A stretch of 64,000 nucleotides of DNA, from the NCBI GenBank assembly GCA_002205965.3, contig NADL03000476.1:124001-188000 (forward strand), read 5' to 3'. The position numbers and the translations under genes are program-made. This stretch comes from Kappaphycus alvarezii (taxonomy: Eukaryota > Rhodophyta > Florideophyceae > Gigartinales > Solieriaceae). The notes below the pieces were generated by a model that saw only the letters and a program-made list of their open reading frames with translations, did no database searches and was not told the DNA's origin. Below, piece after piece: positions 16,544-59,085 of this stretch. The first letter of the stretch is position 1, and each line of letters starts with the position of its first letter.

Positions 16544-17086
16544 TGTGAAATTGACCAAATATTTTAATCTCTATCCCGGTGTCCTACATTGATGCTGAAT
16601 TGTGGAGCAATATTTTTGTTGAGGCCCACAATTTATATTTATTATGAATCATCAAGGAATAATTTTATCTATTTTACACTGGCACTATTTTATGCTGAAT
16701 TCAGTGTGAAATAATTTTTATGCCTACAGTTGGGTTTTTATATTATATAGGCTATAATTACTACATTTATGCTACCAACAATTATTATCTGGATGATTGC
16801 TTACCTGGAAAATACTGCAATAATTATTGCTGAGCCTAAATTATGTCTACCAAAATTATTGAACGGCTCACCTGATTTTTGTAGCAGGTTCACCCTGGCG
16901 TAGAGTATAAGTAGTCTAGGTTGTTAGAAATATTTTTACTTCCTATCGAAATATCCCCTCGATCAGATATTATTAAATTTGGTTTTCTATTCATTATTCA
17001 TTCTAAGTCCGATTGTGGCATTTATTTATTTATTCAAGTTGGAACTATTTTTATTATTTGGATCTACCTATCCCAATTATTTTGCA
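16544..17086 (+). repeat. 5' LTR of copia C
   Basis: AT-rich LTR, pair of 21538-22085. It ends TTTTGCA, followed after three bases by the gag ATG. Confidence 0.93.
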
Positions 17087-17105
17087 GTTATGGGCCCAGA
17101 TCGCC
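17087..17105 (+). promoter_or_regulatory. Copia C primer-binding site overlapping the gag start codon
   Basis: GTTATGGGCCCAGAT follows the LTR directly. It resembles the Drosophila copia site, which pairs with the anticodon stem-loop of initiator tRNA-Met (a half-tRNA primer) and not with a tRNA 3' end. The ATG at 17090 that opens gag is therefore the complement of the CAU anticodon. Half-tRNA priming is known for copia and Ty5; its use here is inferred from sequence. Confidence 0.75.
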
Positions 17106-19417: not shown

Positions 19418-20546
19418 AATTCGACAAAAAATCTCTTATCGTCACAGTACCTGGATCCAATGGAAAATTTATACATGCTGCAATTGAAGATGTCCGACAT
19501 TCCGTTTCATCTAATGAACTAGCATACCAAATTCAAAAGGCAAATGATTTATTGAATCAGTCTATTGAATATTCTGTGGAAGATATTTCTGATGAAAAAA
19601 TATTACCGAAGTGAAGAATGTGGGCGAAAACAATTTTGACGATCATTCTGATGATGGTAATTTTAACCCAAATATGAATACTGATGTCGAAAAATATAAT
19701 GAATCAGAAATTGATGGAACTTTATCAGAATCTAAAAACATATTATCTCTCGAACATGTTCCGATTGAATCTGAACTTAGTTCCCTGCACCCTGAAAATT
19801 TAATTCATATCCCTATTGATGAAAACGATGGAATTGATGCGCATGAAATTGAGTTGTTACCTGGAACGGAATTGAAATCATCTGAACAAAAAGATCTGAG
19901 TTTTTATCATAAAAGGTTTGGATCTAAAGAATTTTTACTTCATCAAGCATCTGGACTTCCATCTCATATTATTTCAAATGCGTACAATACGGAAGAAAAT
20001 AATTTTCTCACTACGTGTTCAAAAATTCATGTTTCAAAAATTCCTCCCGACTCGAATGTAATATCCAGTCACGTTTTATACAAAATAAAAATTTTGGATG
20101 ATGGAAAATATTATTGCAAGGCTCGAATTGCTCCGCATGGAAATGAGGACAAGGAGAAAAATAATTTGAGAACTGATTCGGAATCTTGTTCTCCGATGGC
20201 AATTAGAATTCTCTTATCAATTGCTACAATTTTTAAATGGAATTTATCAAAGGTTGATGTGAAGTCTGCATTTTTACAATCTGGATCAGCATTACGAGAT
20301 GTTTATGTGAGACCTCCTCGGGAATGCTCCGAAAAATCCTTCTATTGGTTATTACTGTCTGCTTCATATGGGTTAGTCAACGCGAATGCAAAATGGCAAA
20401 TACACTCTGATAATACTTTCTTTGACCTCGGATTGAAATCAGTCGTTTATATACCCCAATTATTTTTCATGAGTTTAAAAGGATCCTTAATTCTGCTTGT
20501 TGTTAAATTGGTCGATGATATACTTATTACTGGACAAAAAAATTAA
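19351..20546 (+). pseudogene. Copia C integrase C-terminus and reverse transcriptase
   Basis: Two consecutive frames, 19351-19614 and 19611-20546. The second holds a long acidic linker, then KARIAPHGNEDKEKN, LSKVDVKSAFLQSG (catalytic Asp) and VKLVDDILITG, where the active-site box reads LVDD. The frame changes may reflect one-base indels. RT makes element cDNA. Confidence 0.82.
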
Positions 20547-21507
20547 GAAGCAATTTATCCAAGATCTTGGGAAAGTATATAAGCTTGGTACAATCGTACA
20601 TAGTCCTGGATCTTTTTATTTCAATGGAGTTAAAATCATGCAGTTTGATGACTATAAAATTAATGTCTCAGCTGATGATAAGCTAAATGGACTGGAACCC
20701 CATTCAATATCAAGAAATCGTCGAAAACAACCTGATGAAGAAATGAACTCATTTGAAAACTTTGCTTTTAATTCGTTAAACGGATCAATTGTCTATTTGG
20801 GTATGGTTGCATCTCCAGTGTCTGCCTTTACAGCAAGTTATTTACAACAGAAAAGGTCAAATCCGTTGGTTCGTGATTTATCTATCCAATCTTCTATGCT
20901 TCGGAATTTAAAATCTTTTGGTTCTACAAGCACGTATCGGCGCCCGGAAGTTTCTGGAAATTTCAATTTATCAGTTGTTGTTTTTTCTGATGCAGGAAAA
21001 CCAGCCGGATCGACAAATGCTCAACTTGGATGTATTGGTGGGTTGCTAATTGGCTCCTTAAATTGTAATTCAATATTTCATACAATTTATTGGCATTCAC
21101 ATCTATCTCGGCGTCCTGTTAAATCTATTGCATCTGGTGAAATATTGGCTGCTGGTGAAGCTATCGAGGAAGGAAAAATTATTGCAGCAGCATACAGTAC
21201 ACTTCTAAATATCAATATTCCTCTTCATGTTGCTGTTGATTCAAAAGATCTATTCAGCTCTCTATCTACTTGTCGTGTGCCTGAAGATAAATCTATTAGA
21301 GCGGATGTTCAATTAATTCGATATAATTTCGAAACGAACAAAATCAAGAAAATGCTATGGATACCTGGTTCAATTAATCCTTCCGACCCGCTCACAAAAA
21401 AGGACAGTCCTGTATCTGACATGCTCAAGCTCCTTTTATTTGATGGATCTATACCTATGGATATGAGTAATATTTTATCTCGGGATTCATCTCAGTCAAC
21501 AGGATAA
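20530..21507 (+). pseudogene. Copia C RT thumb and RNase H
   Basis: Overlaps the previous frame and ends at the stop 21505-21507, just before the purine tract. VVVFSDAGKPAGSTNAQLG carries the first RNase H Asp, SGEILAAGEAI the Glu and VAVDSKDLFSSL the next Asp. The tail with INPSDPLTKK is typical of copia RNase H C-termini (ADxLTK). All the RNase H catalytic positions I can place look intact. Confidence 0.85.
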
Positions 21508-21537
21508 ATTTAATTCAATATTTCAAAGGGGAAGTAG

Positions 21538-22085
21538 TGTGAAAATTGACCAAATATTTTAATCTCTATCCCGGTGTCCTACAGTGATGCTGAATTGTGG
21601 AGCAATATTTTTATTGAGGCCCACAATTTATATTTATTATGAATCATCAAGGAATAATTTTATCTATTTTACACTGGCACTATTTTATGCTGAATTCAGT
21701 GTGAAATAATTTTTATGTCCTACAGTTGGGTTTTTATATTATACAGGCTATAATTACTACATTTATGCTACCAACAAATTATTATCTGGATGATTGCTTA
21801 CCTGGAAAATACTGCAATAATTATTGCTGAGCCTAAATTATGTCTACCAAAATTATTGAACGGCTCACCTGATTTTTGTAGCAGGTTCACCCTGGCGTAG
21901 AGTATAAGTAGTCTAGGTTGTTAGAAATATTTTTACATTCCTATCGAAATATCCCCTCGATCAGATATTATTAAATTTGGTTTTCTATTCATTATTCATT
22001 CTAAGTCCGATTGTGGCATTTATTTATTTATTCAAGTTGGAACTATTTTTTATTATTTGGATCTACCTATCCCAATTATTTTGCA
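21538..22085 (+). repeat. 3' LTR of copia C
   Basis: Pair of 16544-17086, followed by target duplication ATGTG at 22086-22090. Confidence 0.93.
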
Positions 22086-22972: not shown

Positions 22973-23008
22973 CGCCCTCCCGCTCAAGACGAACGTCCCG
23001 GCTCGTCA

Positions 23009-24230
23009 CTGCTCTTCTTCTGTTTCCGTTAGTGTTCGCTGTCTTATTGATAAAATATATGGTCTCTCAAACGGGTACGGATGCAACTGATTACCAATAT
23101 GATGTTCTAAAAAGTAGGTTCGCATTACTGGTACCTCACTTTGTAGCATAGCCTCATATATTGGTTTGATAACATCGAGATGGGGTTGAATACATTCTTC
23201 TTCCGTGACTCTTCCGAATCTTCCAAGAGTGAAAAAATATATGTGATATGCAAACTCTTCTGGAAGATGCCGGAGGAATGGATGCCGATAAGAAAAGAAG
23301 ACGCGCATCATCAAGAACGAATCTTCGTAAGATAAGTGCGGTCCATGTAGCGCCCTAAAACATAAACAGATGCTTATCATGAAATAAGAAATGACCTGCG
23401 CATCGTTCGCATCCTCGGAGATATTGCGCAGCCAAAAAGATAATCTTCTTCTTCCGACTGTATGCTGTGCATGGTTGTGAAGGAGAGCTAGAGATGAAGT
23501 TGTGGTGGACGGTCCCGATGAATGGCCGCGACCAGCTCCTGACGTACTGGGACCTGCACGAGGTCCTCTCGGGGGACGACCGGAACCTCTTCTGGGCGGG
23601 TTGTTGTCTCCCGAAGGTCCTCCTCTGGTCATCATCACTGCTTCAGGAGGATCCTCGCCGCCTCCAACGTTCCCAATTTGTGGCGGAGAAACGTAAGGTT
23701 CCCATAGAGGATACGGGACCAGTCTGTACTCCATATCCGGGGTAAGGCGTAACCTCTCAGTCGCACGTCTTGGTTGTTCTTGAGAAATACGTAAATTGGA
23801 CGGATAATATTCAGATACGTTTGCGACAAGTCTCCAGCAGCTACCATTCCATATCTTCCTATAGAGTAATGATATATTACCTCCACAAACTCTGGACCTG
23901 CTTCCGTGAACCTTCCGTTTTGGAATGAAAATAGAACTCTTATTAATAGTCGGAAATCTTCTTCAGGTAGCAATGGTCCGTTCAACGTACGAAAACATAG
24001 GCATATATTAATGTAGAAATGGATGATTACGTGGAGTTCGTAGTAGTCCCGCGTAATCGAGATGATCCATTCCCAGGCCCTTTTTCCTCCCATAGGAATC
24101 ATTCTATAGTTAAAGATGAGTATGCCCCGTGGTTGCGCATAGTCCTGTGTGAGAAGGAATTCTTCAGGCCTCTGATGATAAGGGACCAGACGACGTGCAT
24201 GGATAGCCCTCCTTGATCTCTTCCCTGAGC
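23009..24230 (-). pseudogene. Post-integrase extension of element A: tandem pair of an unknown domain
   Basis: Continues the integrase C-terminal frame (HARRLVPYH) into about 350 extra residues. Two related domains follow each other. Domain 1 (about 23700-24086) has INICLCFRTLNGP, EEDFRLLIRVLFSF, GRYGMV and LVPYPLWEPY. Domain 2 (about 23055-23450) has ISICLCFRALHGP, YEDSFLMMRVFFSY, GRFGRV and LHPYPFERPY. A Pro/Arg/Gly/Ser-rich linker joins them. One frameshift at a C run lies near 23740. No signal peptide, membrane segment or known env, chromodomain or protease motif is visible. I do not recognise the family; the same layout occurs in element E. Confidence 0.8.
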
Positions 24231-24335
24231 TTGAACAGAGCTGATAGTGCGGGTGTCTTTCCTCCGTGACGATGCAAGGGTTCGAGTACTTGGTTTGGAA
24301 GGCCGGCCACTTCACAGCCTGCTGCATTGCTTTTC

Positions 24336-25836
24336 CATGTACTACAAGTACTTTAGAGCCAACTGAAAAGGTTCTGACTGCAGTTCTGCATCCTTATTTC
24401 TTGTCTGTGTTAGCGCGCGGTGTGATCTCCAGCCTTCGGTGGCCAGTAGTTCAACTTCCCTACTCTCTTCATCGATAATATTTGTTTCCATGTCTCTCTG
24501 TAACATTCTAGGAGCCCTTCCGTACATTAGCTCGAATGGTGAGCGTCCATTTCTTCCTCTTCTTTGACGATAGCCGTATAACACTTTTGGTAAGGCATCT
24601 TCCCACTGGATTTCATTCTCCGACATAGTTTTCGATATTGCTCGTTTAATGGTTCCAACCATCCTCTCAGCTTTCCGTTGGACATAGGAGCGTATGCGAG
24701 AACGGTCTTCAGCTGAATCCCTTTCTCGTCCAAAAAACGAAGCAGTGAAGTTGCAGTAAAACAAAGGGCGTTATCCGAGATTATCCTTTTTGGAAGACCA
24801 AACGGTTCAATTATTTCTTTTTCGATGAATCTCAGTACCACCTCAGCATTTGCCTCCTCAACTGCAACTGCTATTGGCCATCCAGTAAGATGTTCCACCC
24901 CTATAAGGAGATATTTTTTCCGGAAGAGGTTTCCTTGAACGGGCCCGCAAAGTCAATTGAGAAGGTTTCAAAGAGACCGGAAACTGGAAAACTTAGAGTT
25001 GTCTTATACTTCCGTATTGGAGTGAATTTTTGGCAGTTGTCGCAGCTTTTCACGAAATTATAGACGTCCTTATGGATACCGGGCCACCAGAATCTCTCAG
25101 TTACGAATTTTTTGGTTGTTTCGAGATCCCAATGCCCTAGCTCATCATGGAAAGTCCTCAAGATCTTCATTCTTTCTTTCAAAGGGGCCACTAGTCGGGG
25201 ACCGGCTTTAGTGTGCCGGAAGAGTTTCCCATTCCACAATGTAAAAGCCTTTTGATTCCTGCGTACCCAATTTCTGTGTTCAAGATCAACCTTTCTCATT
25301 TCTAGTCCATCGAGGAATTTGATCAGTCCGTGAATATTAGCTTCGTACTCGTTATCGTTCGGCAACTGCAACTCGGCGACTCCGACGATGTCCTCCGAAG
25401 CTTTTTCATTTGGAATCAGTGCGTCCCTCAAGCGGGATAGGTAATCGGCAGGCTGATTATTGCGTCCGGGTCTATACACAATTTCAAACCGATATTCTGC
25501 GAAAATGTCGAGCCATCGGGCCAAGCGGTGATGTACATCCTTCTTTTGGAATGCTGTCTTAAGTGCCTGGTGATCAGTTATCAAGACAAATTTCTCGAGT
25601 GATAAAAGGTATACGCGAAACTTTTTCAGCGCGAAGACGACAGCTAGCGCTTCTTTCTCGCAGACTGAGTATCTCTTTTCCGCATCATTCAGAGTTCGGC
25701 TTGCGAATTGAACAGGGTGTAGTCTTCCGTTTTCATCTTTTTGGGACAAAACGGCACCCAAAGACCGTTCTGAGGCATCTGTCTCCACAACGAATGGTCT
25801 CTTGAAATCTGGGTACATGAGAACTGGGGGACACAT
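24336..25836 (-). pseudogene. Element A RNase H and integrase
   Basis: RNase H: VETDASERSLGAVLSQ, YSVCEKEALAVVFALKKF and FVLITDHQALKTAF carry its catalytic Asp and Glu positions. The integrase zinc-binding region (HDELGHWDLETTKKF, CDNCQKF) follows, then core Asp in FSIDFAGPF, Asp in RIISDNALCF and, after frame changes near 24700-24900, a stretch ending with VLYGYRQRRGRNGRSPFELMYGRAP. The Glu motif region near 24680 reads PMSNGK in the right frame, with a frame change directly after it. Confidence 0.82.
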
Positions 25837-26660
25837 AGCTTATCTTTAAGCTCCTGAAATGCAGTTTCCATTTCCTTGTTCCAGTAAAATTTTCCGTTCT
25901 TCGTAGTGCTGGCATGTAACGGTGCTGCAGTCTTGGCGAAATCTTTGATAAATCTTCTGTAATATGAGGCCAGTCCTAAGAAGCTTCGGACCTCCGTCTT
26001 TGAAGCGGGCCTTGGTGCCAACTTTATTTTTTTCGTTTTCTCTGGATCCACACTAATTCCCTCTTGGTCGACGATATGACCGAGTAATTGGATAGAAGTT
26101 TTCGCAAAGAAGCATTTGCTCAACTTAATTTTCAAGCTATACTCCGATATCCTCTCCACAACTGTCTTGACGTGCGAGATGTGCTGATCCAATGTTTCTG
26201 AGAATATGACGACATCATCGATATAGACTCTTGCGAATGGAAGTCCTTTCAAAACCTCGTTCATCATTCTTTGGAATGTAGCTGGTGCATTCATGAGACC
26301 AAAAGGCATCACTTCGAACCTGAACGTACCAACTTTGCTGGTAAAGGTTGTTTTTTCCTTACATTTTTCATCCAATGGAATCTGCCAATAGCCAGTGTAA
26401 AGGTCAATTGAGGTGAAATATCTCCCATCCTTCAGGTCCTCGAGGATCTCCTCCATGTTCGGAATCGGAAATCGATCGGGTATCATTCTCTGGTTCAGTT
26501 GTCGGTAATCGACGCAAAAACGCAGCTTTCCATCCTTCTTTGGTGCGACCACAACTGGAAACGACCATGGGGATGAAACTGGTCGAATAATACATTTTTC
26601 AGCATACTTGTAACATTTTCTGAGATAAATTGGTCATATTTTGGCGGTTGACGTCTGGGC
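25689..26660 (-). pseudogene. Element A reverse transcriptase
   Basis: PKKDGKLRFCVDYRQLNQ, YFTSIDLYTGYWQIPL, FEVMPFGLMNAPATFQ and FARVYIDDVVIFS give an intact RT with YIDD active site, then FLGLASYYRRFIKDFAKTAAPL. One frameshift lies upstream near 26550-26600 and one downstream near 25800. Confidence 0.87.
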
Positions 26661-26699
26661 TTGTGGTAAATCGGTTGAGTGTCGGTAAGTTCGAACGAG

Positions 26700-28001
26700 T
26701 GAGTAACCGGTACACTTGCTTGTCTTAAATCTGATACACTCCATGCAATTACTTCGGAAGATGTTAACATGTCGGATATTTTCAGTGAGGCGGCGGCGGG
26801 AAGGTGCTGCACTTTTCCTTGGATTTCTGCATTTGGCGCCCTTTTCTTCTTGATTCCCAACCTCAATATTTTGAAGGACCTCTCCGTCGTGCTCACATCT
26901 TCATGTATGGAATTCGACGTATTCTTATTTTCTTTGCAATTGTAATCTTCTTTCATACTCCGAATTCTGTCCTTTGATTCGATATTATCGCAAAAAGAAA
27001 CACATTCAGGTGTCACACCTACCCTAGAATTCCAGTCGTCATCTGTTTCAAACCCAGAATCATAATCGTCCCATGCCATGTTCATTACCCCCCAAGGGTA
27101 CCCTTTTCCACTTCCGAAAGTGTTCGTTGGTTCCGAATCTTCGCTGTCATAGCTAGAAGTGAAATCTTCACTGTCCGTTTCTTTCAAATCTACCGGATGT
27201 GTGCTTTTGTCGAAATCCAGGGGCATCTTCACGGTTCTGCCGTCAACATTAACTGAAACGATTTGGTTGCCCAAGTCAATGCAGGTCCCTAGTCTTTCCA
27301 TGGTAGGGCAGCCAATGATTGCATCGAAAGGGAGATCAGGCATGACAAGAAAGTCTACATCAACTTTAGAGTCCCAAAGAACACGGAAACCTTGTCAACA
27401 GTGCCCATGCATTTTGATACGGTTCCATCCGCCACAGTTATTCTTCGAGTAATTGGAATAATTTCAAGACCTAGATCTGTCACCAAAGTTTCTGAATAAG
27501 GTTTGGAACAGCGCCCGAATCGAAAAGAGCTTGGTTTTGCATTCCCAATACTTTGACTGGTACTAGTTTAAGACGTCTTGGTGTGTCGAGGCCGATTGAA
27601 GAACAATTTCTTACCCTTAGCGGACTTATTAGACCTGATAATTTTTTTGAGTTCTTTTCTCGCATCCTCTGCGTCGCCCCTCAAAAGTTGACCAAACGTT
27701 ATCCCAGTTGGGGCCGATGCAAGCTCAGCCACCAAATTGTACTTCTTCACATATTCTAGTACGTCCTTCGGGATATTCTTAAATTTCTTACTCTTTTCGT
27801 CTTCTTGGCCGGAGTGACTCCCACTCCTGGAACAACTTGATCAGACCTCTTGGTTCGAGGAGGTACAGGTGCTGGGATATGTTCCAGCATTCCATAATCT
27901 AGCCTAGGTTTCTTCGATAAAATGTTCCCTTCCCCATCCCTTTTTGTCACATTGACTTGACTAATCTCTTCAGCGATGGATACGTTACCGGCATCCGTCA
28001 A
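26700..28001 (-). pseudogene. Element A protease and linker
   Basis: The aspartic protease is recognisable at about 27480-27600 (LVPVKVLGMQNQALFDSGAV, DSGA active site) and continues after a frame change with MPDLPFDAIIGCPTMERLG. A lysine-rich linker with the sequence VPPRTKRSDQVVPG precedes it, and an acidic linker follows towards RT. Element E has the protease part in one unbroken frame. Confidence 0.8.
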
Positions 28002-28011
28002 CTTTGATCCC

Positions 28012-28970
28012 TTCTATTTTGTAAGATTTTCACCTCTGGTCCTGACTCACTCCTTGCTTCCGATAAATTTGCTCTTCTGTTGTCTTTAGACCAGCAGTTA
28101 CTTTCATGATGCCCGTAACGTCCGCACTTTCCACAACGAGTGTTTCTGTGTGGATTATCAGGACACCTATTTGCAAAGTGTCCAGGCTTGTGACAGTAAG
28201 AACAGACTTCTGCGGCCTTAGGGGCCCCAGACTGGTTCTTCTTAATGGTAAGAGTAAGGCTTTCCAACTGCGAGGTTATCATGTCAAGTCGATTATCGAA
28301 TCGGGTTTCCAACCTTACTTCCAAGTTTTTGACATCGCTTCTGACAGATTCCAATGCTGCTGCACTAGTAGCCGGCCTTTGATATTTCTTTTCAGGATGT
28401 AAGATCGGCAAAGATGTACGGGTTTCCCTCGGTACTTCACTTAGTGACTGAAACGTCTCCGAATTTTTGACAAATTCTACTATGGTACCCTTCAGTTCAT
28501 CAAAAGTGTGAGGGCCCTTGATGAGGAGTAAATCGGAGAGCCGCTTATCCCCCATAGCCGCCTTACGCAGCATTCCGTACTTGGCTTGGGCGTTGAACCC
28601 AGCCTTTTCATAAAGATCACACAAGTACACCAATGAGCTTAACAAATCGTCTAAGTTGAGCCGGGCCTCTATGGCGGTACGAATCATCTCATCTGGTTCT
28701 ACCTCCTTAGCATACTCTTTCACAAGCCACTCACATACGTCACCGAAGTTACCTCCATTCCCGTTAAGAGACCACATGTCGATAAACTTGGACTTATATT
28801 TGTGCTTTGCGTCACCATGAAGATAGGCAAAGATACTTGCGGCCTTCTCTTCATCGCCCTTCTCACGCATCACAACGTTGACATATGTATAGAGAAACTC
28901 CTCAACGTCTTCATTCTTGCCCCCTGTGAACGTTATACGAACACGTTATACGAGCAGCGTTGAGATCCAT
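28012..28970 (-). pseudogene. Element A gag with two zinc knuckles
   Basis: The ATG at 28970 opens MDLNAARI, as in copies E and F. A 13-bp duplication just after it shifts the frame relative to F. The main part runs from 28873 with a gag helix region (SIFAYLHGDAKHKYKSKF), FGDVCEWLVKEYAKEVEPD, and ends with two zinc knuckles, CSYCHKPGHFANRC and CGKCGRYGHHESNC. These bind element RNA. Confidence 0.82.
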
Positions 28971-29059: not shown

Positions 29060-29779
29060 TGATAGGGGTAAATCGTCGGGAGAAGAGATACTTAGAACCA
29101 ACTACCCCAAGACGGAGGTGTTGCGAGCGACAAAAGTGCTACCGTGGTATAGTTGAACAAATAAAAAGCAGTGTATATGGGAGAGAGTTGAGAGGGCTAC
29201 AAGCAAGTATAAAAGGGGCAGCGTCTACCACTGATGCTCTGCGACCTGCTTAGGAAAAAGTTTTCTTGGGTCTGAAGTTGACTCTCAACTTCCTACTACT
29301 CGGAGCTTGACCTGAAGTTGTCTGCCAACTTGCTTGACCTCCACTAAAGGAAGCAGTTTACTCGGCTTATATAGACCTTTGGCTACCCTAAAAGTCTTCA
29401 AACAAACAGACTAATAACCATAAAATGCATTCACGGGAATCGTGTGAACCAGAGAGACCATTAGAAGATATTTCCTCAAGGTAAATATCTAGGTGCCATA
29501 CCCATGCCAGCCACCTATCGGCCAGGGGTGGGAATTGATGTGGCCATTATATAGACCTTTCAGAGTCACTCGTAGTATCACCCACAACCTAGAACTGTAC
29601 TGACATCCACTATGACAGTGTGTCCTAAAATAAAAAATCAACCGATGAATTTGCCACACTCACCCAAATTAAAAATACCTTGCAAATTCAAAAACTGTAA
29701 AAATATCTTCCCAGTTCCAATACTGTATACAATTATGGTCCTCATCTAGATTTTTTCGTGTGCTAATTTGCGCACATCA
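29060..29779 (-). repeat. 5' LTR of element A
   Basis: Pair of 22254-22972. The leader downstream on the - strand starts TTTGGTACCCTTGTGGAGG, with a TGG-type primer-binding site whose tRNA I cannot name. Confidence 0.93.
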
Positions 29780-35015: not shown

Positions 35016-36417
35016 TGTAATACAGAAAATGGTCCTCCCCTCATGTAATACAGAAAATGGTCCTCCCTTCATGTATCCCTTCATGTAATACAGGAAATGG
35101 TCCTCCCTTCGTGTAATCCAGCAACCTACAACGATCCCGCCCCTAACTCCTCCCACCGTCATTTCCAAATTTACTTCCATTTTATCTAGATATTTTTATA
35201 CTGTATTTAGCCCTCTGAATCGACCCCGAATCAAGTTCCTTTTCCCTTTTAGCTTACTTCCTCCTCCAAATTCACCTTTTTTGAGAAGAAGGGCGCAAAG
35301 GCACTACTGCAAAATCCCTTGCAGATTTATTTTACCTATTCCTAATCTATAGAACCTGCCCCGGGAGCCTATTTAAACCCCTTTATTCCAAGTTCCAAAT
35401 GTCCCCGATCATTTTACTCATCATCCCTCCCCCCAAAACACCCTACATTGCCTCTCATTCCCCACCGTCTATCAGAATGAACAACCTTCGCCCCTCCGCC
35501 CCCATCACCAAAAGCCGCCCCTCTCGCCCCATCAACGGCCTAGCCCTAATGAATAGTGGGCCAACAGACTACGACGACTACTTCAGGAGGATGGACCGTG
35601 AGCGTGTTCGGGAGTGGGTTCGTCGGCACTTCTTGGAGGAGGCGGAGGAGGAGTAGTCAGAGGGGACTGAGTCGGACGTGGAGGGATCCGAGGATGAGGA
35701 AGACTTTGTAGCTCCGTGGGAACCGATGGTGTATAATCGTGGGGAAGTTGCTGTGGGGGATGGAGGGGATAGTGAGGGCGTGATCGTCATCTCGGATTCT
35801 TCGGATGGGGTTGGCGCGGAGGCTGAGGGTCGCGAGGAAGAATTGGAGGATCTTGATATGTCTGATGAGGCCATTTATCATTATGAGCCTTCGAGGGAAT
35901 TTGTAGGGATTGCATTGAGAGTATGGATATTTTGGAGGGGTTATTTGGTTCTGATCTTGAGAAAAACGACTGTGAGGAGTAGATACAGATATTTTCCTTG
36001 ATAATATCTTCCCTCTGGCCAGTGACATCCACAAGATGCCCTTTTTTGCGTTTTATGGTATTTAGTATGTTTGATTGAGACTTTAGGATTAGCCGAAAAG
36101 TCTACATAAGCTGAGTAAAGTGCTTCCTCTTTGAGAGGTCAAGCAAGTTGGCAGACAACTTCAAGCCCAGTCCCAAATAGTTAGGAAGTTGAGAGTCCAC
36201 TTCAGACCCAAGAAACATTTATTTTACCCTAGTCACTAAGCATAGGTGGTAGACCCTGCCCCTTTCATACTTGCTTGTAGCCCATTCAACTGTCTTCCCT
36301 ATCCACTCCTTTACGTTCGTTCAACTATACCGCGGTAGCACTTTTTTCGCTTGCAACACCTCCTTCTTGGGGTAGTTGGTTCTGAATATCTCTTCTCCCG
36401 ACGATTTACCCCTATCA
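35016..36417 (+). repeat. 5' LTR of element E
   Basis: Starts with 28-bp tandem repeats (35016-35043, 35044-35071 and 35084-35111), like the solo LTR at 4875-6406. TATTTAAA near 35370 is a likely TATA box about 100 bp before the acidic ORF. It ends CCCCTATCA, then the leader starts TTTGGTACTCTTGTGGAGG. Confidence 0.8.
35477..35960 (+). pseudogene. Acidic ORF in the 5' LTR of element E
   Basis: Begins MNNLRPSAPITKS at 35477, with DDYFRRMDRERVREWVRRHF, then EEAEEE and an in-frame TAG at 35654-35656. The same frame goes on with EGSEDEEDFVAPWEP, a Val/Ile-Ser-Asp-Ser-Ser patch (VIVISDSSDG) and more Glu/Asp. The tail homologous to SMDILEELFGSDLE of the other copies is in another frame near 35920. 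Basic N-terminus, acidic middle, short conserved end; no known domain. ISDSSD resembles a SUMO-interacting or acidic activation patch, which is speculation. Confidence 0.6.
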
Positions 36418-36505
36418 TTTGGTACTCTTGTGGAGGGGGTTGCACCCGAGGTATCCGAGTTGAGCAGTATTAGGGAACACTTCGGGGGATTTCTTTTCTG
36501 TAATC

Positions 36506-37430
36506 ATGGATCTCAACGCTGCTCGTATAACGTTCACAGGGGCAAGAATGAAGACGTTGAGGAGTTTCCTTGTACATATGTCAACGTTGTGATGCGTGAG
36601 AAGAGCGATGAAGGGAAGGCCGAAAGTATCTTCGCCTATCTTCACGGTAACGCAAAGCACAAATATAAGTCCAAGTTTATCAACGTGTGGTCTCTTAACG
36701 GGAATGGGCGTAACTTCGGTGAGGTATGTGAGTGGCTTGTGAAAGAGTATGCTAAGGAGGTAGAACCAGATGAGATGGTTCGTACCGCCATAGAGGCCCG
36801 GCTCAACTTAGACGATTTTTTAAGCTCATTGGTATACTTGTGTGATCTCTATGAAAAGGCTGGGTTCAACGCCCAAGCCAAGTACGGAATGCTCCGTAAG
36901 GCGGCGATGGGGGATAAGCAGCTATCCGATTTCCTCCTCATCAAGGGCCCTCACACCTTTAATAAACTGAAGGGTACCATAGTAAAATTTGTCAAAAATT
37001 CGGAGACGTTTCAGTCACTAAGTGAAGTACCGAGGGAAACCCGTACATCTTTGCCGATCTTACATCCTGAAAAGAATTATCAAAGGCCGGCTACTAGCGC
37101 AGCAGCATTAGAATCAGGCAGGGGGATGTCAAAATCTTGGAAGAAAGGTTGGAAACCCGATCTGATAATCGACTTGACATGATAGCCTCGCAGTTGGAAA
37201 GCCTTACTCTTATCATTAAGAAGAACCAGTATGGGGCCCCAAGGCTCCAGAAGTCTGTTCCTACTGTCACAAGCCTGGACACTTTGAAAATAGGTGTCCT
37301 GATAATCCACACAGAATCACTCGTTGTGGAAAGTGCGGACGTTACGGGCATCATGAAGGTAACTGCTGGTCTAAAGACAACAGAAGAGCAAATTTATCGG
37401 ACGCACGGAGCGCGTCAGGACCACAGATGA
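36506..37430 (+). pseudogene. Element E gag
   Basis: The ATG at 36506 opens MDLNAARI. One G is missing in a G run near 36540 relative to copy F, shifting the frame. The rest closely matches A: SIFAYLHGNAKHKYKSKF, MVRTAIEARLNLDDFLSS. A second frameshift near 37115 precedes the zinc-knuckle region, which is readable only in pieces (for example CGKCGRYGHHEGNC in an alternative frame). Confidence 0.8.
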
Positions 37431-38332
37431 AAATCTTACAAAACAGAAAGGATCACAAGTTGACGGATGCCGGTAACGTATCCATCGCGGAAGAAATCAG
37501 TCAAGTCAATGTGACAAAAAGGGATGGGGAAGGGAACATTTTATCGAAAAAACCTAGGCTAGATTATGGAATGCTGGAACATATCCCAGCACCTGTACCT
37601 CCTCGAACCAAGAGGTCTGATCAAGTTGTTCCAGGAGTGGGAGTCACTCCGGCCAAGAAGACGAGAAAGAGTAAGAAATTTAAGAATATCCCGAAGGACG
37701 TACTAGAATATGTGAAGAAGTACAATTTGGTGGCTGAGCTTGCATCGGCCCCAACTGGGATAACGTTTGGTCAACTTTTGAGGGGCGACGCAGAGGACGC
37801 GAGAAAAGAACTCAAAAAAATTATCAGGTCTAATAAGTCCGCTAAGGGTAAGAAATTGTTCCTTCAATCGGCCTCGACAACACCCAGACGTCTTAAACTA
37901 GTACCAGTCAAAGTATTGGGAATGCAAAACCAAGCTCTTTTCGATTCGGGCGCTGTTCCAAACCTTATTGCAGAAACTTTGGTGACAGATCTAGGTCTTG
38001 AAATTATTCCAATTACTCGAAGAATAACTGTGGCGGATGGAACCATATCAAAATGCATGGGCACTGTTGACAAGGTTTCCGTGTTCTTTGGGGACTCTAA
38101 AGTTGATGTAGACTTTCTTGTCATGCCTGATCTCCCTTTTGATGCAATCATTGGCTGCCCTACCATGGAAAGATTAGGGACCTGCATTGACCTGGGCAAC
38201 CAAATCGTTTCAGTTAATGTTGACGCCAGAACCGTGAAGATGCCCCTGGATTTCGACAAAAGCACACATCCGGTAGATTTGAAAGAAACGGACAGTGAAG
38301 ATTTCACTTCTAGCTATGACAGCGAAGATTAA
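37427..38332 (+). CDS. Element E protease region
   Basis: An open frame of 301 codons starting MKILQNRKDHKLTDAG. After a basic linker the protease appears with LKLVPVKVLGMQNQALFDSG (DSGA active site near residue 170) and FLVMPDLPFDAIIGCPTMER (second conserved block). It ends with an acidic stretch and a TAA where A has an open frame. This is the cleanest protease of this family in the window. Confidence 0.82.
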   Translation: MKILQNRKDHKLTDAGNVSIAEEISQVNVTKRDGEGNILSKKPRLDYGMLEHIPAPVPPRTKRSDQVVPGVGVTPAKKTRKSKKFKNIPKDVLEYVKKYNLVAELASAPTGITFGQLLRGDAEDARKELKKIIRSNKSAKGKKLFLQSASTTPRRLKLVPVKVLGMQNQALFDSGAVPNLIAETLVTDLGLEIIPITRRITVADGTISKCMGTVDKVSVFFGDSKVDVDFLVMPDLPFDAIIGCPTMERLGTCIDLGNQIVSVNVDARTVKMPLDFDKSTHPVDLKETDSEDFTSSYDSED

Positions 38333-39420
38333 GAACCAACTAACACTTTCGGAAGTGGAGAAGGGTACGCTCGGGGGATACTGAACATGGCATGGGATGA
38401 TTATAATTCTGGGTTTGAAACAGATGACGACTGGAATTCTGGGGTAGGCGTGACACCTGAATGTGTTTCTCTTTGCGATAATATCGAATCAAAGGACGGA
38501 ATTCGGAGCATGAAAGAAGAATAACAATTGCAAGGAAAACAGGAATATATCGGATTCCATATCTGAAGATGTGAGCACGCCGGAAGAAGTCCTTCAAAAT
38601 TTGGAGGGAGAGGCTCGAGAAGAAGACCAGCGCCAAATGGCATAAATTCAAGAAAAAGTACAGCACCTTACAGCCCCCGCCTCAATGAAAATATCCGACA
38701 TTTTAACATCTTCCGAAGTAATTGCATGGAGCGCTTCCGATCTAAGACAAGCAAGTGTACCAGTCACTCACTCATTTGAACTTACCGATACTGAACTAAT
38801 TTACCACAGGCCTGGACGAAAACCGCCAAAATATGACCAATTTATCTCAGAGAATGTTACAAGTATGCTGGAAAATGATATTATACTGCCAGTTTCATCC
38901 CCGTGGTCATTTCCAGTTGTGGTAACACCAAAGAAAGATGAGAAACTTCGCTTTTGCGTCGATTACCGACAACTGAACCAGATAATGATACCCGATCGAT
39001 TTCCGATTCCAAATACGGAGGAAATCCTCGAGGACTTGAAGGACGGGAGATACTTCACCTCAATTGATCTTTACACTGGTTATTGGCAGATTCCATTGGA
39101 TGAAAAGTGTAAGGAAAATACAACCTTTACCTGCAAAGCCGGTACATTCAGGTTCGAAGTGATGCTTTTTTGTCTCAGGAATGCGCCAGCTATGTTCCAA
39201 AGAATGATGAACGAGGTTTTGAAAGGACTTCCATTTGCTAGAGTTTATATCGATGATGTGGTAGTATTCTCAAAAACCTTGGATCAGCACATATCGCATG
39301 TCAAGACTGTGGTGGAGAGGATATCTGCGTACAGCCTGAAAATTAAGCTATGCAAATGCTTCTCTGTGAAAACTTCTATCCAATTACTCGGTCATAACCT
39401 CGATTAAGAGGGAATTAAAG
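38333..39420 (+). pseudogene. Element E linker and reverse transcriptase
   Basis: 38333-38680 is a decayed acidic linker. From 38685: KISDILTSSEVIAWSASDLR, then RFCVDYRQLNQ, YFTSIDLYTGYWQIPL, FARVYIDDVVVFS (YIDD intact). The MPFGLMNAPATF box of A is altered here to MLFCLRNAPAMF. A stop follows LLGHNLD. Confidence 0.83.
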
Positions 39421-39559
39421 TGGATACAGAGAAAACGAAAAAATCAAGTTGGCACCAAGGTCCGCTTCAAAGACGGAGGTCCGAAGCTTCTTAGGACTGG
39501 CCTCATATTACAGAAGATTTATCAAAGATTTCGCCAAGACACTGCAGCACAGTTACATT

Positions 39560-41300
39560 CCAGCACTATGAAGAACGGAAAATTTTACTGGAACAAGGAA
39601 ATGGAAACTGCATTTGAGGAGCTTAAAAATAAGCTATGTGTCACCTCAGTCCTCATGTACCCAGATTTGAAGAGACCATTTGTTGTGGAAACAGATGCAT
39701 CAGAACGGTCTTTGGGTGCCGTTTTGTCCCAAAAAAAGATGAAAACGGAAGACTACACCCTGTTCAATTCGCAGTCGCACTCTGAATGATGCGTAAAAGA
39801 GATACTCAGTCTTCGAGAAAGAAGCGCTAGCTGTCGCCTTCGCACTGAAAAAGTTCCGCGTGTACCTTGTATCACTCGAGAAATTTGTCTTGATAACTGA
39901 TCACCAGGCACTTAACACAGCATTTCAGAAGAAAGATGTACATCACCGCTTAGCTCGATGGCTCGACGTTTTCGCAGAGTACCGGTTTGAAATTGTGTAT
40001 AGGCCCGGACGCAATAATCAGCCTGCCGATTACCTATCCCGCTTGAGGGATGCACTGAGTCCAAATGAAAAAGCTTCCCAGGACGTCGTAGGAGTTGTCG
40101 AGGTGCAAGTTACGAACAAAAAAGAGTACGAATCTTATATTAACGGGCTAATTAAATTCCTGGATGGACTAGAAATGAGAAAGGTTGATTTTGAACACAG
40201 AAATTGGGTACGCAGGAAACAAAAGGCCTTTACATTGTGGAATGAGAAACTCTTCCGACACGCAAAAGCCGGTCCTCGACTAGTGGCCCCTATGAAAGAA
40301 AGAATGAAGATCTTGACGACTTTTCATGATGAGTTAGGGCATTGGGATCTCGAAAAAACCAAAAATTTCATTATGGGGAGATTCTGGTGGCCCAGTATCC
40401 ATAAGAACGTCTATAATTTCGTGAAAAGCTGTGACAACTGTCAAAAATTCACTCCAATACGAAATTATATGACAAATCTAAGCTTTCCAGTTTCCGGTCT
40501 CTTTGAAACCTTCTCAATTGACTTTGCCGGCCCATTCAAGGAAACCTTTCGGAAACAAATCGGGAAACAAATAGCAGTTGCAGTTGAGGAGGCAAATGCT
40601 GAGGTGGTCCTGAGATTCATCGAAAAAGAAATAATTGAACCGTTTGGTCATCCAAAAAGGATCATCCCGGATAACGCCCTTTGTTTTACTGCAACTTCAC
40701 TGCTTCGTTTTTTGGAAGAGGAAGGTATTCAGCTGAAGACAGTTCTCCTTACGCTCCTATGTCAAACGGTAAAGCGGAGAGGATAGTTGGAACGTCAAAC
40801 GATCAATATCGAAAACTATGTCGGAGAATGAAATCCAGTGGGAAGATGCCTTACCAAAAGTGTTATACGGCTATCGTCGAAGAAGAGGAAGAAGTGGACG
40901 TCACCATTCGAGCTAATGTACGGAAGGGCTCCTAGAATGTTACAGAGAGATATGGAAACAAATATATCGATGAAGAGAGTAGAGAAGTCGAACTACTGGC
41001 CACAGAAGGCTGGAGATCACACTGCGCGTAACACAGACAAGAAATGAGGGTGCAGAGCATCCAGTCCAACCTTTACGATCGGCTCTAGAGTACTTGTAAT
41101 ACATGAAAAAGCAATGCAACAGGCTGTGAAGTGGACGGCCGTCCAAACAAAGTACTCGAATCCTTGCGTCGTCACGGAGGAAAGACACCCGCACTATAAG
41201 CTTTGTTCAAGCTCAGGAAGAGATCAAGGAGGGCCATCCATGCACGTCGTCTAGTCCCTTACCATCAGAGATCTGAAGAATTCCTTCTCACACAGGACTA
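39560..41300 (+). pseudogene. Element E RNase H and integrase
   Basis: RNase H parts at 39568-39789 (VVETDASERSLGAVLSQ) and 39860-40060 (FVLITDHQALNTAF). The integrase zinc-binding region has HDELGHWDLEKTKNF and CDNCQKF, then FSIDFAGPF (Asp), RIIPDNALCF (Asp) and, after frame changes near 40750, PMSNGKAERIVG (Glu). All three core residues can be placed but in different frames. Confidence 0.82.
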
Positions 41301-42398
41301 TGCGCAACCACGGGGCATACTCATCTTTAACTATAGAATGATTCCTATGGGAGTAAAAAGGGCCTGGGAATGGATCATCTCGATTACGCGTGACTACTAC
41401 GAACTCCACGTAATCGTCCATTTCTACATTAATATATGCTATGTTTTCGTACGTTGAACGGACCATTGCTACCTCAAGAAGATTTCCGACTATTGATCAG
41501 AATTCTATTCTCATTCCAAAACGGAAGGTTCACGGAAGCAGGTCCAGAGTTTGTGGAAGTCATATATCATTACTCTATAGGAAGGTATGGAATGGTAGCT
41601 ATCGGAGACTTGTCGCAAACATATCTGAACATTATCCGTCCGGTTTACGTATTTCTTAAGAACAACCAAGATGTGCGACTGAGAGGTTACAGCTTGCCCC
41701 CTGATATGGAATATCGACTGGTCCCATATCCTCTATGGGAACCTTACGTTGCTCCGCTCAGAAACACAACCTCAGCCAAAGACCAGGATCCTCCCGAGGC
41801 CGTGATGATGATACGAGCTGGACCATCAAGTGATCGGGGCGGATCATCGAAGAGAGCAAGGCGTCGGGAGCAGCGAGGAAGATCGCCAAGAAGATCGCCT
41901 CAAACACCGCCTAGTCTCCCAGGGGGAAACTATGCATCCTTAATTATTGGACGGCTGCCAATTAGACGTTGGCTTCGCGAAATGACAGAGGACCCACGAG
42001 AAGCAGAAGTAATTTCCTTTTTTGCAATTAGTATTTGCATGTGCTTCCAGACCATTCACGGGGCGCACCTTACTCGTGAGGACTCAGTCCTTATGTTGCG
42101 AGTTTTTTTCTCCTTCAGATACCCGTTTCTGGATCCGTTGCCAGAAAAGTTTGCATACTACGTTTATTACCTCACATTTGGAAGGTTTGGAGAAGTGAAA
42201 CGGGAGGAGCTCATTAGAGAACACTATGAAACCATACGCCGAATCTACGAAACTCTTGACCAAGGAGATGAGCCGGTCATCGCACGATACACACTCTCTC
42301 ATCATATTGGAAATGAGCTACTACCATATCCTTATAGTGAACCCTATACTCTCCCTGATGAATGGATAGAACTCCCACAAGAACAACAAGAGCATTGA
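41300..42398 (+). pseudogene. Post-integrase extension of element E: tandem pair of an unknown domain
   Basis: Follows the integrase tail HARRLVPYHQR. A one-base deletion near 41440 is the only frame break; the frame from there to the TGA at 42396-42398 is open. Domain 1 (about 41353-41753) and domain 2 (about 41963-42353) share CFxxxxGxxLxxED, FSF, GRxGxV, an IR/RIY element and PYPxxEPY. The linker is rich in Arg, Ser and Pro. Conservation with element A while the linker differs suggests that both domains were under constraint. Function unknown; it occupies the env position but has no visible signal peptide or membrane anchor. Confidence 0.82.
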
Positions 42399-42433
42399 GA
42401 ACGAGACGGGACGTTCGACCTAAGTCCGGGGGG

Positions 42434-43916
42434 TGTTAGGCGCAGATTTTTTTTGTCGCCGTCATCTACAGGCCTATAGTTTACTGTACTACCTCTCCTT
42501 GTCCAAATTTTCTTATAGTTCCGGTCCTTCCTCGTCTCCCTGAACCTCGCTTATCATTACCGCGGTCCTCTCCAAATTTACTTCCATTTTATCTAGATAT
42601 TTTATACTGTATCTACCCTCTGAATCGATCCCGAATCAAGTTCTTTTCCCTTTTTGCTTACCTCCTCCTCCAAATTCGTTTTTTTGAGAAAAAGGGCGCA
42701 AATGCACTACTACAAAATCCCTTGCAGATTTATTTCACCTATTCCTAATCGATAGAACCTGCCCCGGGAGCCTATTTAAACCTCTTTATTCCAAGTCTCA
42801 AACGTCCCTGAACATTTTACTCATCACCCTCTCCCCCACACACCCAAAACACCCTCTATCCTCCGTCTACAGTCATTTACAACCAAAATGAAGAACCTTC
42901 GCCCCTCCGCCCCCATCACCAAAAACCGCCCCTCTCGCCCCTTAAACGGCCTTGCGCTCGCAGTATATGGCCCGACGGACGCAGACGACTACCTGCGACG
43001 GCAAACTAAGAAGAAGATAATAGAGTTCGTCCGCAAGCTCTTCGTCGAGGATGAGGCCGAGGAGGTACCGAGGGTCAGGAGTGGGACATCGAGGAGGGAG
43101 CTGGGGAGACCTTTGAGGAGTGGGTAGCCCCTGGATTGGTCTATGAGGTTAATAACGAGGAGGACGGGGAGGATGAGGTTGAAGAGGAGGATGAGGATGA
43201 GGAGGAAGAGGAGGAAGAGGAGGATGACGAGGACGAGGACGAGTTGGATGAGGGAAATGGGGCACGGAAAGTGTTGTACTGGTGGGGCCTGGACTGGAGA
43301 GTATGGATCAAGTGGTGCCGACGCTGGAACCGGATGGATATATCTTTAGTAGTTTAGATATCTCCCAGGAGGGAATAGAGAGCTGTAAGCCATTCGCAGA
43401 TATTCTTGGGGACTGCTTGGACAGCATGGATATTTTAGAGGAGTTGTTTGGATCTGATTTAGAATGGGAAATAAGAGGACCTCATTGATTGTTAGTTTCT
43501 TAAGTATCTTTTGTTTAGAGTATGTCATCCGCACAAATTGTTTCTGCGCATTTTCTGGTACCTTCTGTAGTTTTGTTCGGACTTTAGGGGTAGCCAAAAG
43601 TCTATATAAGCTGAGTAAACCGCTTCTTCATGGAGAGGTCAAGCAAGTTGGCAGGCAGCTTCAAACTCAGTCCCAAATAGTTAGGAAGTTGAGAGTCAAC
43701 TTCAGACCCAAAGAGCATTTATTTTACCCTAGTCACTAAGCATAGGTGGTAGACCCTGCCCTTTCAATACTTGCTTGTAGCCCATTCAACTGTCTTCCCT
43801 ATCCACTCCTTTTCGTTCGTTCAACTATACCACAGTAGCACTTTTGCCGCTTGCAACACCTCCTCCTTGGGGTGGTTGGTTCTGAATATCTCTTCTCCCG
43901 ACGATTTACCCTATCA
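42434..43916 (+). repeat. 3' LTR of element E
   Basis: Starts TGTTAGGCGCAG after a G-rich tract and ends CCCTATCA. It lacks the 28-bp repeats of the 5' LTR but matches it from about CCAAATTTACTTCC on. TATTTAAA lies near 42774. Confidence 0.8.
42888..43490 (+). pseudogene. Acidic ORF in the 3' LTR of element E
   Basis: Begins MKNLRPSAPITKN at 42888, then DDYLRRQTKKKIIEFVRKLF. A frameshift near 43070 separates it from EEWVAPGLVYEVNNEED and a long Glu/Asp run (43180-43260, low-complexity GAG/GAT codons). The conserved end SMDILEELFGSDLE is near 43425-43470 in a further frame. A parental protein of roughly 200 residues is implied. Confidence 0.6.
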
Positions 43917-45960: not shown

Positions 45961-47108
45961 AGCAAGTTGGCAGACAACTTCAAGCCAAGTCCTGGGTAGT
46001 AGCGAGTTGAGAGTCAACTTTAGACCCAAGAACCCTTTTTCCTACGCTTCTCACAGAGCATCAGTGGTAGACCCTGCCCCTTTCATACATGCTTGTAGAC
46101 CTCTCAACTCTCTTCCATATACACTGGGGTCGTTCAACTATACCACGGTAGCACTTTTGTCGCTTGCAACACCTCCTTCTTGGGGTAGTTGGTTCTGAAT
46201 ATCTCTTCTCCCGACGATTTACCCCTATCATTTGGTACTCTTGTGGAGGGGGTTGCACCCGAGGTATCCGAGTTGAGCAGTATTAGGGAACACTTCGGGG
46301 GATTTCTTTTCTGTAATCATGGATCTCAACGCTGCTCGTATAACGTTCACAGGGGGCAAGAATGAAGACGTTGAGGAGTTTCCTTGTACATATGTCAACA
46401 TTGTGATGCGTGAGAAGAGCGATGAAGGGAAGGCCGAAAGTATCTTCGCCTATCTTCACGGTAACGCAAAGCACAAATATAAGTCCAAGTTTATCAACGG
46501 GTGGTCTCTTAACGGGAATGGGCGTAACTTCGGTGAGGTATGTGAGTGGCTTGTGAAAGAGTATGCTAAGGAGGTAGAACCAGATGAGATGGTTCGTACC
46601 GCCATAGAGGCCCGGCTCAACTCCGACGATTTTTTAAGCTCATTGGTATACTTGTGTGATCTCTATGAAAAGGCTGGGTTCAACGCCCAAGCCAAGTACG
46701 GAATGCTGCGTAAGGCGGCGATGGGGGATAAGCAGCTATCCGATTTCCTCCTCATCAAGGGCCCTCACACCTTTAATAAACTGAAGGGTACCATAGTAAA
46801 ATTTGTCAAAAATTCGGAGACGTTTCAGTCACTAAGTGAAGTACCGAGGGAAACCCGTACATCTTTGCCGATCTTACATCCTGAAAAGAATTATCAAAGG
46901 CCGGCTACTAGTGCAGCAGCATTGGAATCTGTCAGAAGCGATGTCAAAAACTTGGAAGTAAGGTTGGAAACCCGATTCGATAATCGACTTGACATGATAA
47001 CCTCGCAGTTGGAAATCCTTACTCTTACCATTAAGAAGAACCAGTCTGGGGCCCCCAAGGCCGCAGAAGTCTGTTCCTACTATCACAAGCCTGTAAACTT
47101 TGCAAATA
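45961..47108 (+). mobile_element. Fragment F of the A/E gypsy family: LTR end and gag
   Basis: 45961-46230 is the last 270 bp of an LTR ending CCCCTATCA, followed by the same leader as E and a gag ORF from 46319. The gag is open to the break at about 47108, inside the first zinc knuckle, where Cys is replaced by Tyr (SYYHKP). The sequence after 47109 is unrelated to gag although the frame runs on to 47236. Confidence 0.85.
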
Positions 47109-47236
47109 GGTTACTATTTCATCTGTTTGGTCCGGCAGAGGTAAGGAGACACCATATGACCGTATACCGTCGCTCAGATCTTGACGAGAAGCTCAGCAGT
47201 AGTTTGAACATCGATAGTTGGCAGTTCTACATATAA
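46319..47236 (+). pseudogene. Gag of fragment F, with foreign C-terminal residues
   Basis: MDLNAARITFTGGKNEDVEEF opens the longest unbroken gag N-terminus of the family. Residues after about 263 come from the adjoining sequence. It is a useful reference for placing frameshifts in A and E. Confidence 0.75.
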
Positions 47237-57405: not shown

Positions 57406-57710
57406 TCCTTCTCCTCCATAAGTCGAGCACGTGCCTCTGTGATTTTCCTCTCACGTTCCATGCAGAACGATTTCCGAGTTTCTTCTTCCTTCTTTAGACG
57501 CCGCTGCTGCTCTGCTTCTCGTGCGGCTTTTTCTGCCATTTCCGCCTGAAGCTTTGCTTTCCTATCCGCCTCTGCCTTAGCCCTTTTGCATTCGTTCAAA
57601 GCGGAATTATCTGGCAGCGTGGATAATTGAATATGGCCAGGTTATGCGGATGGCATACCATGCATTGGCCCAGGCGATGGTTGCGGGGCGGCCGAAAAGA
57701 TCAGATTCGC

Positions 57711-57780
57711 AGGCGCTCCATTCGAAGGACTGATGTCAGGCTTTTAGGCGCTCCATTCGAAGGACTGATGTCAGACTTTT
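57711..57780 (-). repeat. 35-bp tandem duplication in SAC3-family gene
   Basis: Units 57711-57745 and 57746-57780 differ at one position. Thirty-five is not a multiple of three, so it shifts the frame near the C-terminal third. Confidence 0.9.
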
Positions 57781-59085
57781 CAGCTTCCAACACTTCCTTG
57801 CTCCCTTGGCTAATATTTGAAGGCGCAGAGACGAGCCGATTGAGGATTGCTGAGGCAGATCGATTTGCACTGGGGCCCTCTTTGACAGGTGCCGGGGTTT
57901 TCTCGGGAAGGGCCTTTGTGACTGGTTTGAGAAGAGCCAAACTAGCAGGAGGTGGAGCCAGACTTGACGATCTTGGTGCTTCCTGCTGAAGCTTGGGACT
58001 GTGCTGCTGCACACGTGTCCCCGTTGCATAGGCACGGAGTCGCGGAGAGCAATCATGTGGTAGCGAAGTCAAGTTATAGACATCATTCAACGAGCCAGCA
58101 ATGAGTTCGGAGGGTTTGCATTGTCCAGACTTTTTCTCAACGAGGGCGCTTGGTCCTTTGGGAAACAATTCATCCCATTTGTCTGTGTCAAGTGTAGATG
58201 TCATTGAAACTGCTTTCAAAGGTTCCTCTGCCCCTCTTGACTCTACATTTCTAATACCGAAGCCGGCTATCGAACAAAACTTAACCGTCTCTTCATCTCC
58301 AACGAAGCATAGCTGCTCTGTTAGTCTCGGGACATTAATGATGTCTCTTGCGCCATGACTCGAGTTAATGATCCTTAAAGCCTGACATTGCATGTAATGG
58401 GATCTTATGTACATCATACATGCTAGTAAGTACGGTGCTGCACGCAAACACTTGAAGAATCCTACGTAGTCCCAAAACGAACGAGAACATGACTTCACGA
58501 CTTGCAGAGCCAACTGAATTGGAAGACTGTTTCGAACATCTGGGCTGAATCCCCTGAGCAATCGGACACAAGTTTGCGGTCCAGACATTTGCAAGAGAAG
58601 GTAATAAGCCTGCATTTCCGGTTCGTTGGGGGATGTCGGCAAATTCTCTTCACGACGCAAGTCGTACATTTCCCGCAGCTATATTAGGCACTTATCTAGC
58701 TGCTCTAGGTTCTGCTTCGAGGAGAACACCGCCGGATCACTGCCTGCCAACCGATGCTCTGAAAGGATATGAAATCGCACACTTTCCTCGTAAACCTTAA
58801 TGCAAGTATCGCCACGCACACCTTGATATGTGAAGTCTTGCCGTAAAGAACGAGTTCTGTCGCGCACGAACTTGTGAATTTCCGTGAATGACTCCTCTTC
58901 TGTGTCACATACAGTCTTGAGGAGTTCCATCGTTTTCAACAAAACGGGCGGGGGACGTATATCCTCGGGTGTAGGCTCCTCGCTAACGGCTGCAGAGCGG
59001 CGATACTTCTTCACTGCTTTTGCGGGATCAGGATCGCTTCCTCTTCCACTTACAGTTTCGAAGACTGATATATCACGCTGTAGGA

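Follow-up and report, generated by a model that had tools for sequence, protein, structure and literature searches.

The stretch of DNA analysed here (64,000 nucleotides, positions 124,001 to 188,000 of contig NADL03000476.1 in assembly GCA_002205965.3 of the red alga Kappaphycus alvarezii; hereafter denoted the window) contains two copies of a Ty3/gypsy-type long terminal repeat (LTR) retrotransposon whose coding region continues beyond the integrase. In copy B, on the plus strand, the integrase is followed by a tandem of two domains joined by a linker (D1–linker–D2), which ends just 5′ of the 3′ LTR; D1 and D2 are related copies of one domain of ~145 residues. The same pair is borne by copy A on the minus strand (23006–24393), an addition to the initial annotation of this DNA, a reading made from the sequence without database searches. 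The features of the two copies are as follows.

Copy B, plus strand:
35158..36417, +, matched part of the 5′ LTR; left end not fixed
36376..41047, +, gag, protease, reverse transcriptase, RNase H and integrase; several broken frames
41048..41319, +, integrase C-terminal domain, the end of recognisable integrase (tblastn with the copy A tail)
41320..41750, +, D1 (open reading frame list and alignment); frame break near 41439
41751..41927, +, basic linker rich in P, R and S (translation)
41928..42398, +, D2 (to 42395) and stop codon (open frame 41433–42398 and homology to D1)
42434..43916, +, 3′ LTR, longer than that of copy A and holding a short open reading frame; left end inferred (a TG that follows a run of G)

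Copy A, minus strand:
29060..29779, −, 5′ LTR, ~720 bp, 99.4% identical to the 3′ LTR
24394..28945, −, gag with zinc-knuckle-like motifs, protease region, reverse transcriptase, RNase H and integrase; several broken frames
24121..24393, −, integrase C-terminal domain
23690..24120, −, D1; frame break near 23740
23486..23689, −, linker rich in G, P, R and S
23006..23485, −, D2 and stop codon
22254..22972, −, 3′ LTR, 719 bp, TG...CA, flanked by the target duplication TCTTC

The host element is a Ty3/gypsy-type LTR retrotransposon, as it has both LTRs with a target duplication and the order protease, reverse transcriptase, RNase H, integrase, the latter established from Pfam matches pooled from the broken open reading frames of both window copies. 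RVT_1, RT_RNaseH and Integrase_H2C2 exceed the Pfam cut-offs in copy A, the aspartyl protease is matched in copy B at 37220–38332, and the zinc-knuckle matches lie below cut-off; the zinc-binding part of the integrase is above cut-off and the core match (rve) below it, at 20.3 of 32.6 bits. The 3′ LTR of copy B begins, on its inferred left end, ~35 bases past the D2 stop codon and measures ~1.48 kb, compared with ~720 bp in copy A; it was matched to the 5′ LTR from 42565 onward, with 82–85% identity in two longer blastn pieces and 91–94% in shorter ungapped pieces. Another copy, the third, is shorter (gag at 46277–47236) and gave matches in its 5′ part only.

The initial annotation had placed about 350 further residues behind the integrase of copy B, made of two tandem copies of one domain. 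The pair is indeed found there, although it starts later than had been proposed, at ~41320, the preceding part being the integrase C-terminal domain; this tail aligns with that of copy A at 76% identity over its first 58 residues, together with the next in-frame piece (tblastn), and the two copies are 96% identical in the piece 41218–41439. Homology between D1 and D2 is clear: in copy A they align with 36% identity over 126 residues (E=4e-25) and score 214, none of 1000 shuffles exceeding 61, and in copy B the score is 158 compared with a shuffle maximum of 51. Every motif named in the initial annotation as shared occurs twice within 41320–42395, in the first and second half respectively as CFRTLNGPLLPQED and CFQTIHGAHLTRED, FSF and FSF, GRYGMV and GRFGEV, IIRPVY and IRRIY, and PYPLWEPY and PYPYSEPY. 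The indel it had suspected near 41440 corresponds to the frame break near 41439. The linker between the two domains is probably disordered.

Searches of Pfam, NCBIfam, PHROGs and PDB chains, with single sequences or with profiles, gave no credible match to D1 or D2, and none of the tail region to an env, chromodomain or RNase H family, which bears out the earlier description of the domain as unfamiliar. Pfam likewise returned nothing, chromodomain included, for the tail of either window copy or of an open copy, and the integrase tail piece alone found nothing credible in PDB. The highest-ranking hits were taken as chance: PDB chains from E=0.89, among them Switch-activating protein 1 at E=1.7; DUF4886 in Pfam (E=0.28); PHROG 25680 (E=0.078); and, on the related protein P0002 described below, ribosomal L22e (whole protein, residues 233–297, E=0.008, below cut-off) and three other weak matches on its D1. 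An origin of the pair as a relic of Gag was considered and rejected, there being no profile similarity between D1–D2 and the Gag of the element itself. The titles and abstract openings of the literature surveyed contain no description of the domain, although the text beyond them could still hold one.

A known fold that has diverged past the reach of sequence methods, such as an RNase H-like, chromo/SH3-like or capsid-like fold, would fit either of the functions considered below. The domain profiles were built from six domain sequences only, which leaves room for such a relationship; the best E-values obtained (0.89 and 1.7 in PDB, 0.078 in PHROGs and 0.077 in Pfam for the domain alone) and the sub-threshold L22e match speak against it, as does a length of ~145 residues, far beyond the 53 positions of the Pfam chromodomain model. 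We regard a disguised known fold as rather unlikely.

The genome (336 Mb in 884 contigs) was searched with D1, D2 and the frame of copy A, each search scoring the best candidates only. With D1, the best 150 of 5509 candidates were all 99–100% identical and stop-free; with D2 of copy B, the best 150 of 4988 were all at least 99% identical, ~100 of those 150 at 100%; and with the frame of copy A, the best 125 of 6663 candidates gave 148 matches at 82–100% identity. The copies form a young family of high abundance. The initial annotation described a decayed element and suggested selection until recently, both claims resting on one copy: selection is upheld by the analysis below, and the family is not simply a decayed one, given that the D2 it reported is 100% identical to ~100 of the best 150 places and that copies with both domains in one frame exist. 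With at least 70% of the reference score required for each domain, 12 of the 30 copies selected with D1 (L031–L060) have D1 and D2 together in a single open frame, and nine of these 12 carry the integrase C-terminal domain in that frame too. No such copy occurs among 50 others (L001–L030 and L061–L080), as expected because the query that chose them spanned a frame break.

The occurrence of the same broken frame in many copies raised the possibility of programmed frameshifting where D1 meets the linker in copy A. This was rejected: the query itself spanned the break, 12 of the 30 D1-picked copies read through, and 37 of 80 copies have indels near the junction at no fewer than six positions (21 at one position, nine at a second, three at a third and four elsewhere), a variation in break position between copies that makes a programmed shift unlikely. 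The broken-frame label needs at least nine changes on the copy tree, two of them forced by well-supported branches, and a single event may account for the junction indels of some copies. The single-base breaks scattered among near-identical copies may reflect either decay or errors in the assembly. The youth and near-identity of the copies also mean that open frames alone prove little, and they lend some support to the view that the extension is functionless, an open frame that arose by chance or is carried along as a passenger in a young family.

Substitution patterns argue against such a passenger. Eighty copies were compared with one naturally open copy, and substitutions were split into those shared by at least two copies and those private to one, with an assumed transition weight of 3. 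The ratio of nonsynonymous to synonymous rates (dN/dS; omega) was 0.23 for shared and 0.77 for private substitutions in D1 (Fisher p=0.0011), 0.15 and 1.18 in D2 (p=1.4e-8), 0.31 and 0.95 in the integrase tail (p=0.0012), and 0.39 and 0.97 in the linker (p=0.066); exclusion of CpG transitions gave 0.21 and 0.85 for D1 and 0.15 and 1.10 for D2. Shared changes are thus mostly synonymous and private ones look neutral, and the shared estimate is conservative because any parallel post-insertion changes among the shared class would raise omega. D1 and D2 are under purifying selection (0.15–0.23 for shared compared with 0.77–1.18 for private substitutions); in the initial annotation, a dN/dS well below 1 had been named, along with a shared fold, as support for a functional domain pair and a value near 1 as its refutation. 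Relative to the reference copy, 109 of 420 C-to-T or G-to-A differences in L061–L080 fall at CpG, the 1614-base reference having 76 CpG; this excess suggests that the elements carry cytosine methylation.

Two types of the element, A and B, extend the comparison. D1 is 94% identical between them at the amino acid level (87 codons), with dN 0.037, dS 0.225 and an omega of 0.16 (bootstrap 0.03–0.46) that is similar to the 0.14 of the reverse transcriptase; Gag, at 0.45 (bootstrap 0.26–0.88), lies above both. D2 is 50% identical, with dN 0.456 and a saturated dS, so that no point omega is given; retention of half its residues at saturated dS again counts against a functionless frame. The change is abrupt along the DNA: an open type A copy is 86–99% identical to copy B up to ~41700, then 72% over the next 100 bases and 42–64% from 41800 to 42500, and across the linker zone of copy B the type A identity falls from 0.89 (in the 41600s) to 0.42 (in the 41900s). 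The LTRs also largely differ between the types, their last ~430 bp being ~80% alike. Judged from these identity profiles, the join between A and B is a recombinant one, inside or just before the linker, and the sharp drop makes D2 and the 3′ part look like an exchanged cassette, which might have been transferred by template switching during reverse transcription. The type B LTR contains a short open reading frame, found at 35477–35656 (+), ~42888–43127 (+) and ~5787–6101 (−), which starts MxNLRPSxPITKxRPSRPxNGLAL, has a GPTDxxDYxRR stretch and, in one copy, an acidic tail; the piece at 5814–6101 is diverged (37.5% identity, E=3e-10), and the frame has no Pfam match.

Protein searches with queries lacking the integrase tail found no relative among 1576 and 2151 candidates, and no relative was found in viral contig scans or phage records. 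When the query was extended by the integrase tail, three of 7684 candidates passed (P0002, P0003 and P0004), all of which contain the integrase C-terminal tail seen in copies A and B. P0002 (593 amino acids; contig of 1969 bases, source ncbi) is 28% identical over 96% of the query (E=9.5e-82) and carries integrase and both domains, a layout that places the integrase–domain–domain arrangement in at least two lineages; it is taken to be a protein of another element lineage, and may even stem from this host or a near one. Its integrase resembles that of Ty3, the Gag-Pol of PDB 7q5b aligning with residues 10–242 (E=2.6e-8) and stopping just before D1. By pairwise scores, D1 of the Kappaphycus element comes closest to the second P0002 domain, and the higher score of D2 is with the first P0002 domain; the swapped order has a column bootstrap of 0.956 and tree support of 66/71 on long branches, which is only suggestive of a reversed order of the domain types between the lineages. 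Conservation of the pair in P0002, together with the selection described above, makes a passenger frame very improbable.

Copy A and 17 other copies were examined at both ends. An LTR start was present at the expected place in 14 of these 18 and absent there from four; ten of the 14 have an exact 5-bp target duplication and the other four lack an exact match, so copies bearing the D1–D2 extension have integrated with a 5-bp target duplication. The ten duplicated sites show a weak symmetric target preference, with G before the site in eight, C after it in seven and C two places further in nine. Head-to-tail copies at ~7.5 kb spacing occur on contigs C385, C420, C592, C606, C671 and C738 and at L007 and L013; the spacing fits one element plus one LTR, and the copies form tandem arrays that may reflect circles or artefacts of assembly.

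On the sequence evidence, the integrase of this abundant Ty3/gypsy-type element has a genuine C-terminal extension, composed of two divergent copies of an uncharacterised domain. Its association with the integrase is supported by the tail running directly into D1 in open copies and in P0002. We propose, with a probability of roughly 40%, that D1–D2 is an accessory module of the integrase tail that takes over from a chromodomain the tethering or assembly of the integration complex. In this model the pair would work as part of the integrase and would bind chromatin, a host protein or a second integrase protomer, such that the complex is tethered or assembled, a role equivalent to that of the chromodomain at the same position in chromoviruses; duplication would yield two unlike binding surfaces, and D2 may evolve and be swapped independently of D1. 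Tethering or assembly is favoured on two grounds, the linker and a position like that of a chromodomain.

A close parallel is with chromoviruses, gag-pol elements of the same kind with a chromodomain at the integrase C-terminus (PMC3605345, PMC2864245, PMC3350952); there, likewise, an extra domain is fused directly behind the integrase C-terminal domain as the last before the 3′ LTR. Unlike these, the present element has no chromodomain match and carries a domain of ~145 residues twice, with a long basic linker. Another integrase in the window, at 14125–15336 (−; rve E=1.1e-9), is followed by a weak chromodomain match (PF00385, E=1.1e-4, below cut-off). Tat/Ogre-type elements have an additional RNase H after the integrase; there, too, a domain was gained behind the integrase, although the region described here has no Pfam RNase H match. 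Errantivirus-type Ty3/gypsy elements have an env-like open reading frame between integrase and 3′ LTR, and thus share with this element extra coding DNA at that position; here, however, open copies read from the integrase into the extension without a change of frame, and the extension matches no env family. Rather than a separate env-like frame, D1 and D2 form one frame in 12 of 30 copies and are joined to the integrase tail in 9 of 30.

An alternative is that the pair is an accessory protein standing in place of env or a small 3′ open reading frame, with the protease freeing D1–linker–D2 to act alone. No further coding sequence separates the pair from the 3′ LTR, its linker is basic and rich in G, P, R and S, and D2 differs between the element types along with much of the LTR, all of which would suit such a protein; accessory domains within LTR-element polyproteins have been described (PMC6338049). 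The single frame with the integrase in open copies, the lack of any match to an env, capsid or silencing-suppressor family and the lack of profile similarity to the Gag of the element itself point the other way. We regard a freed accessory protein as the main rival to tethering or assembly, although a somewhat unlikely one; it might act, for example, in particle structure, RNA packaging or the countering of host silencing.

Several observations weigh against the proposed tethering or assembly module. Sequence and profile searches assigned no fold to D1 or D2. P0003 and P0004 (45% and 43% identity) end just past the integrase tail, a comparison that covers the proteins rather than the downstream contig DNA. 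Protease cleavage could free the pair to act elsewhere. Finally, 21 downstream flanks have no common target and include only two alike pairs, one of which is the element itself in tandem, so that these flanks give no sign of strong targeting to a single sequence family. More speculatively, D1–D2 may constitute a new fold family that evolved in, or was captured by, a red-algal gypsy lineage and was duplicated before the split from the lineage of P0002, the order being now swapped; it would then act as a two-headed tether replacing the chromodomain, with D2 swapped as a cassette, possibly changing the target or partner. We hold this fuller scenario to be doubtful.

Elsewhere in the window, a retroelement at 16543–22085 (+) has an 829-residue open frame between ~550-bp repeats that are 98.5% identical and reads as copia-like, and 57701–58678 (−) covers part of a host SAC3/GANP-family gene (Pfam E=7.5e-23). 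In the wider assembly, contig C546 (L081) contains a bacterial-looking cox operon, so that the assembly seems to include one or more bacterial contigs, from either a contaminant or a symbiont. Contigs C508 and C519 (L082–L084) contain nuclear mitochondrial cox1 fragments in which TGA is read as tryptophan; the fragment L082 is closest to COX1 of PDB 7jro, which we take to be a plant complex, and these features are compatible with a red-algal host.

To our knowledge, a targeting role is understood for few accessory modules of LTR retroelements, chromodomains foremost. The present element adds another kind of integrase tail, both duplicated and selected, and has thousands of candidate places in the genome (the best 150 scored in each of the D1 and D2 searches); it can be compared with chromodomain-bearing elements in the same host. 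As the sequence family is missing from the profile libraries searched, it can itself be used to search other genomes. The domain pair suggests a new way in which such elements may steer or assist their own insertion.
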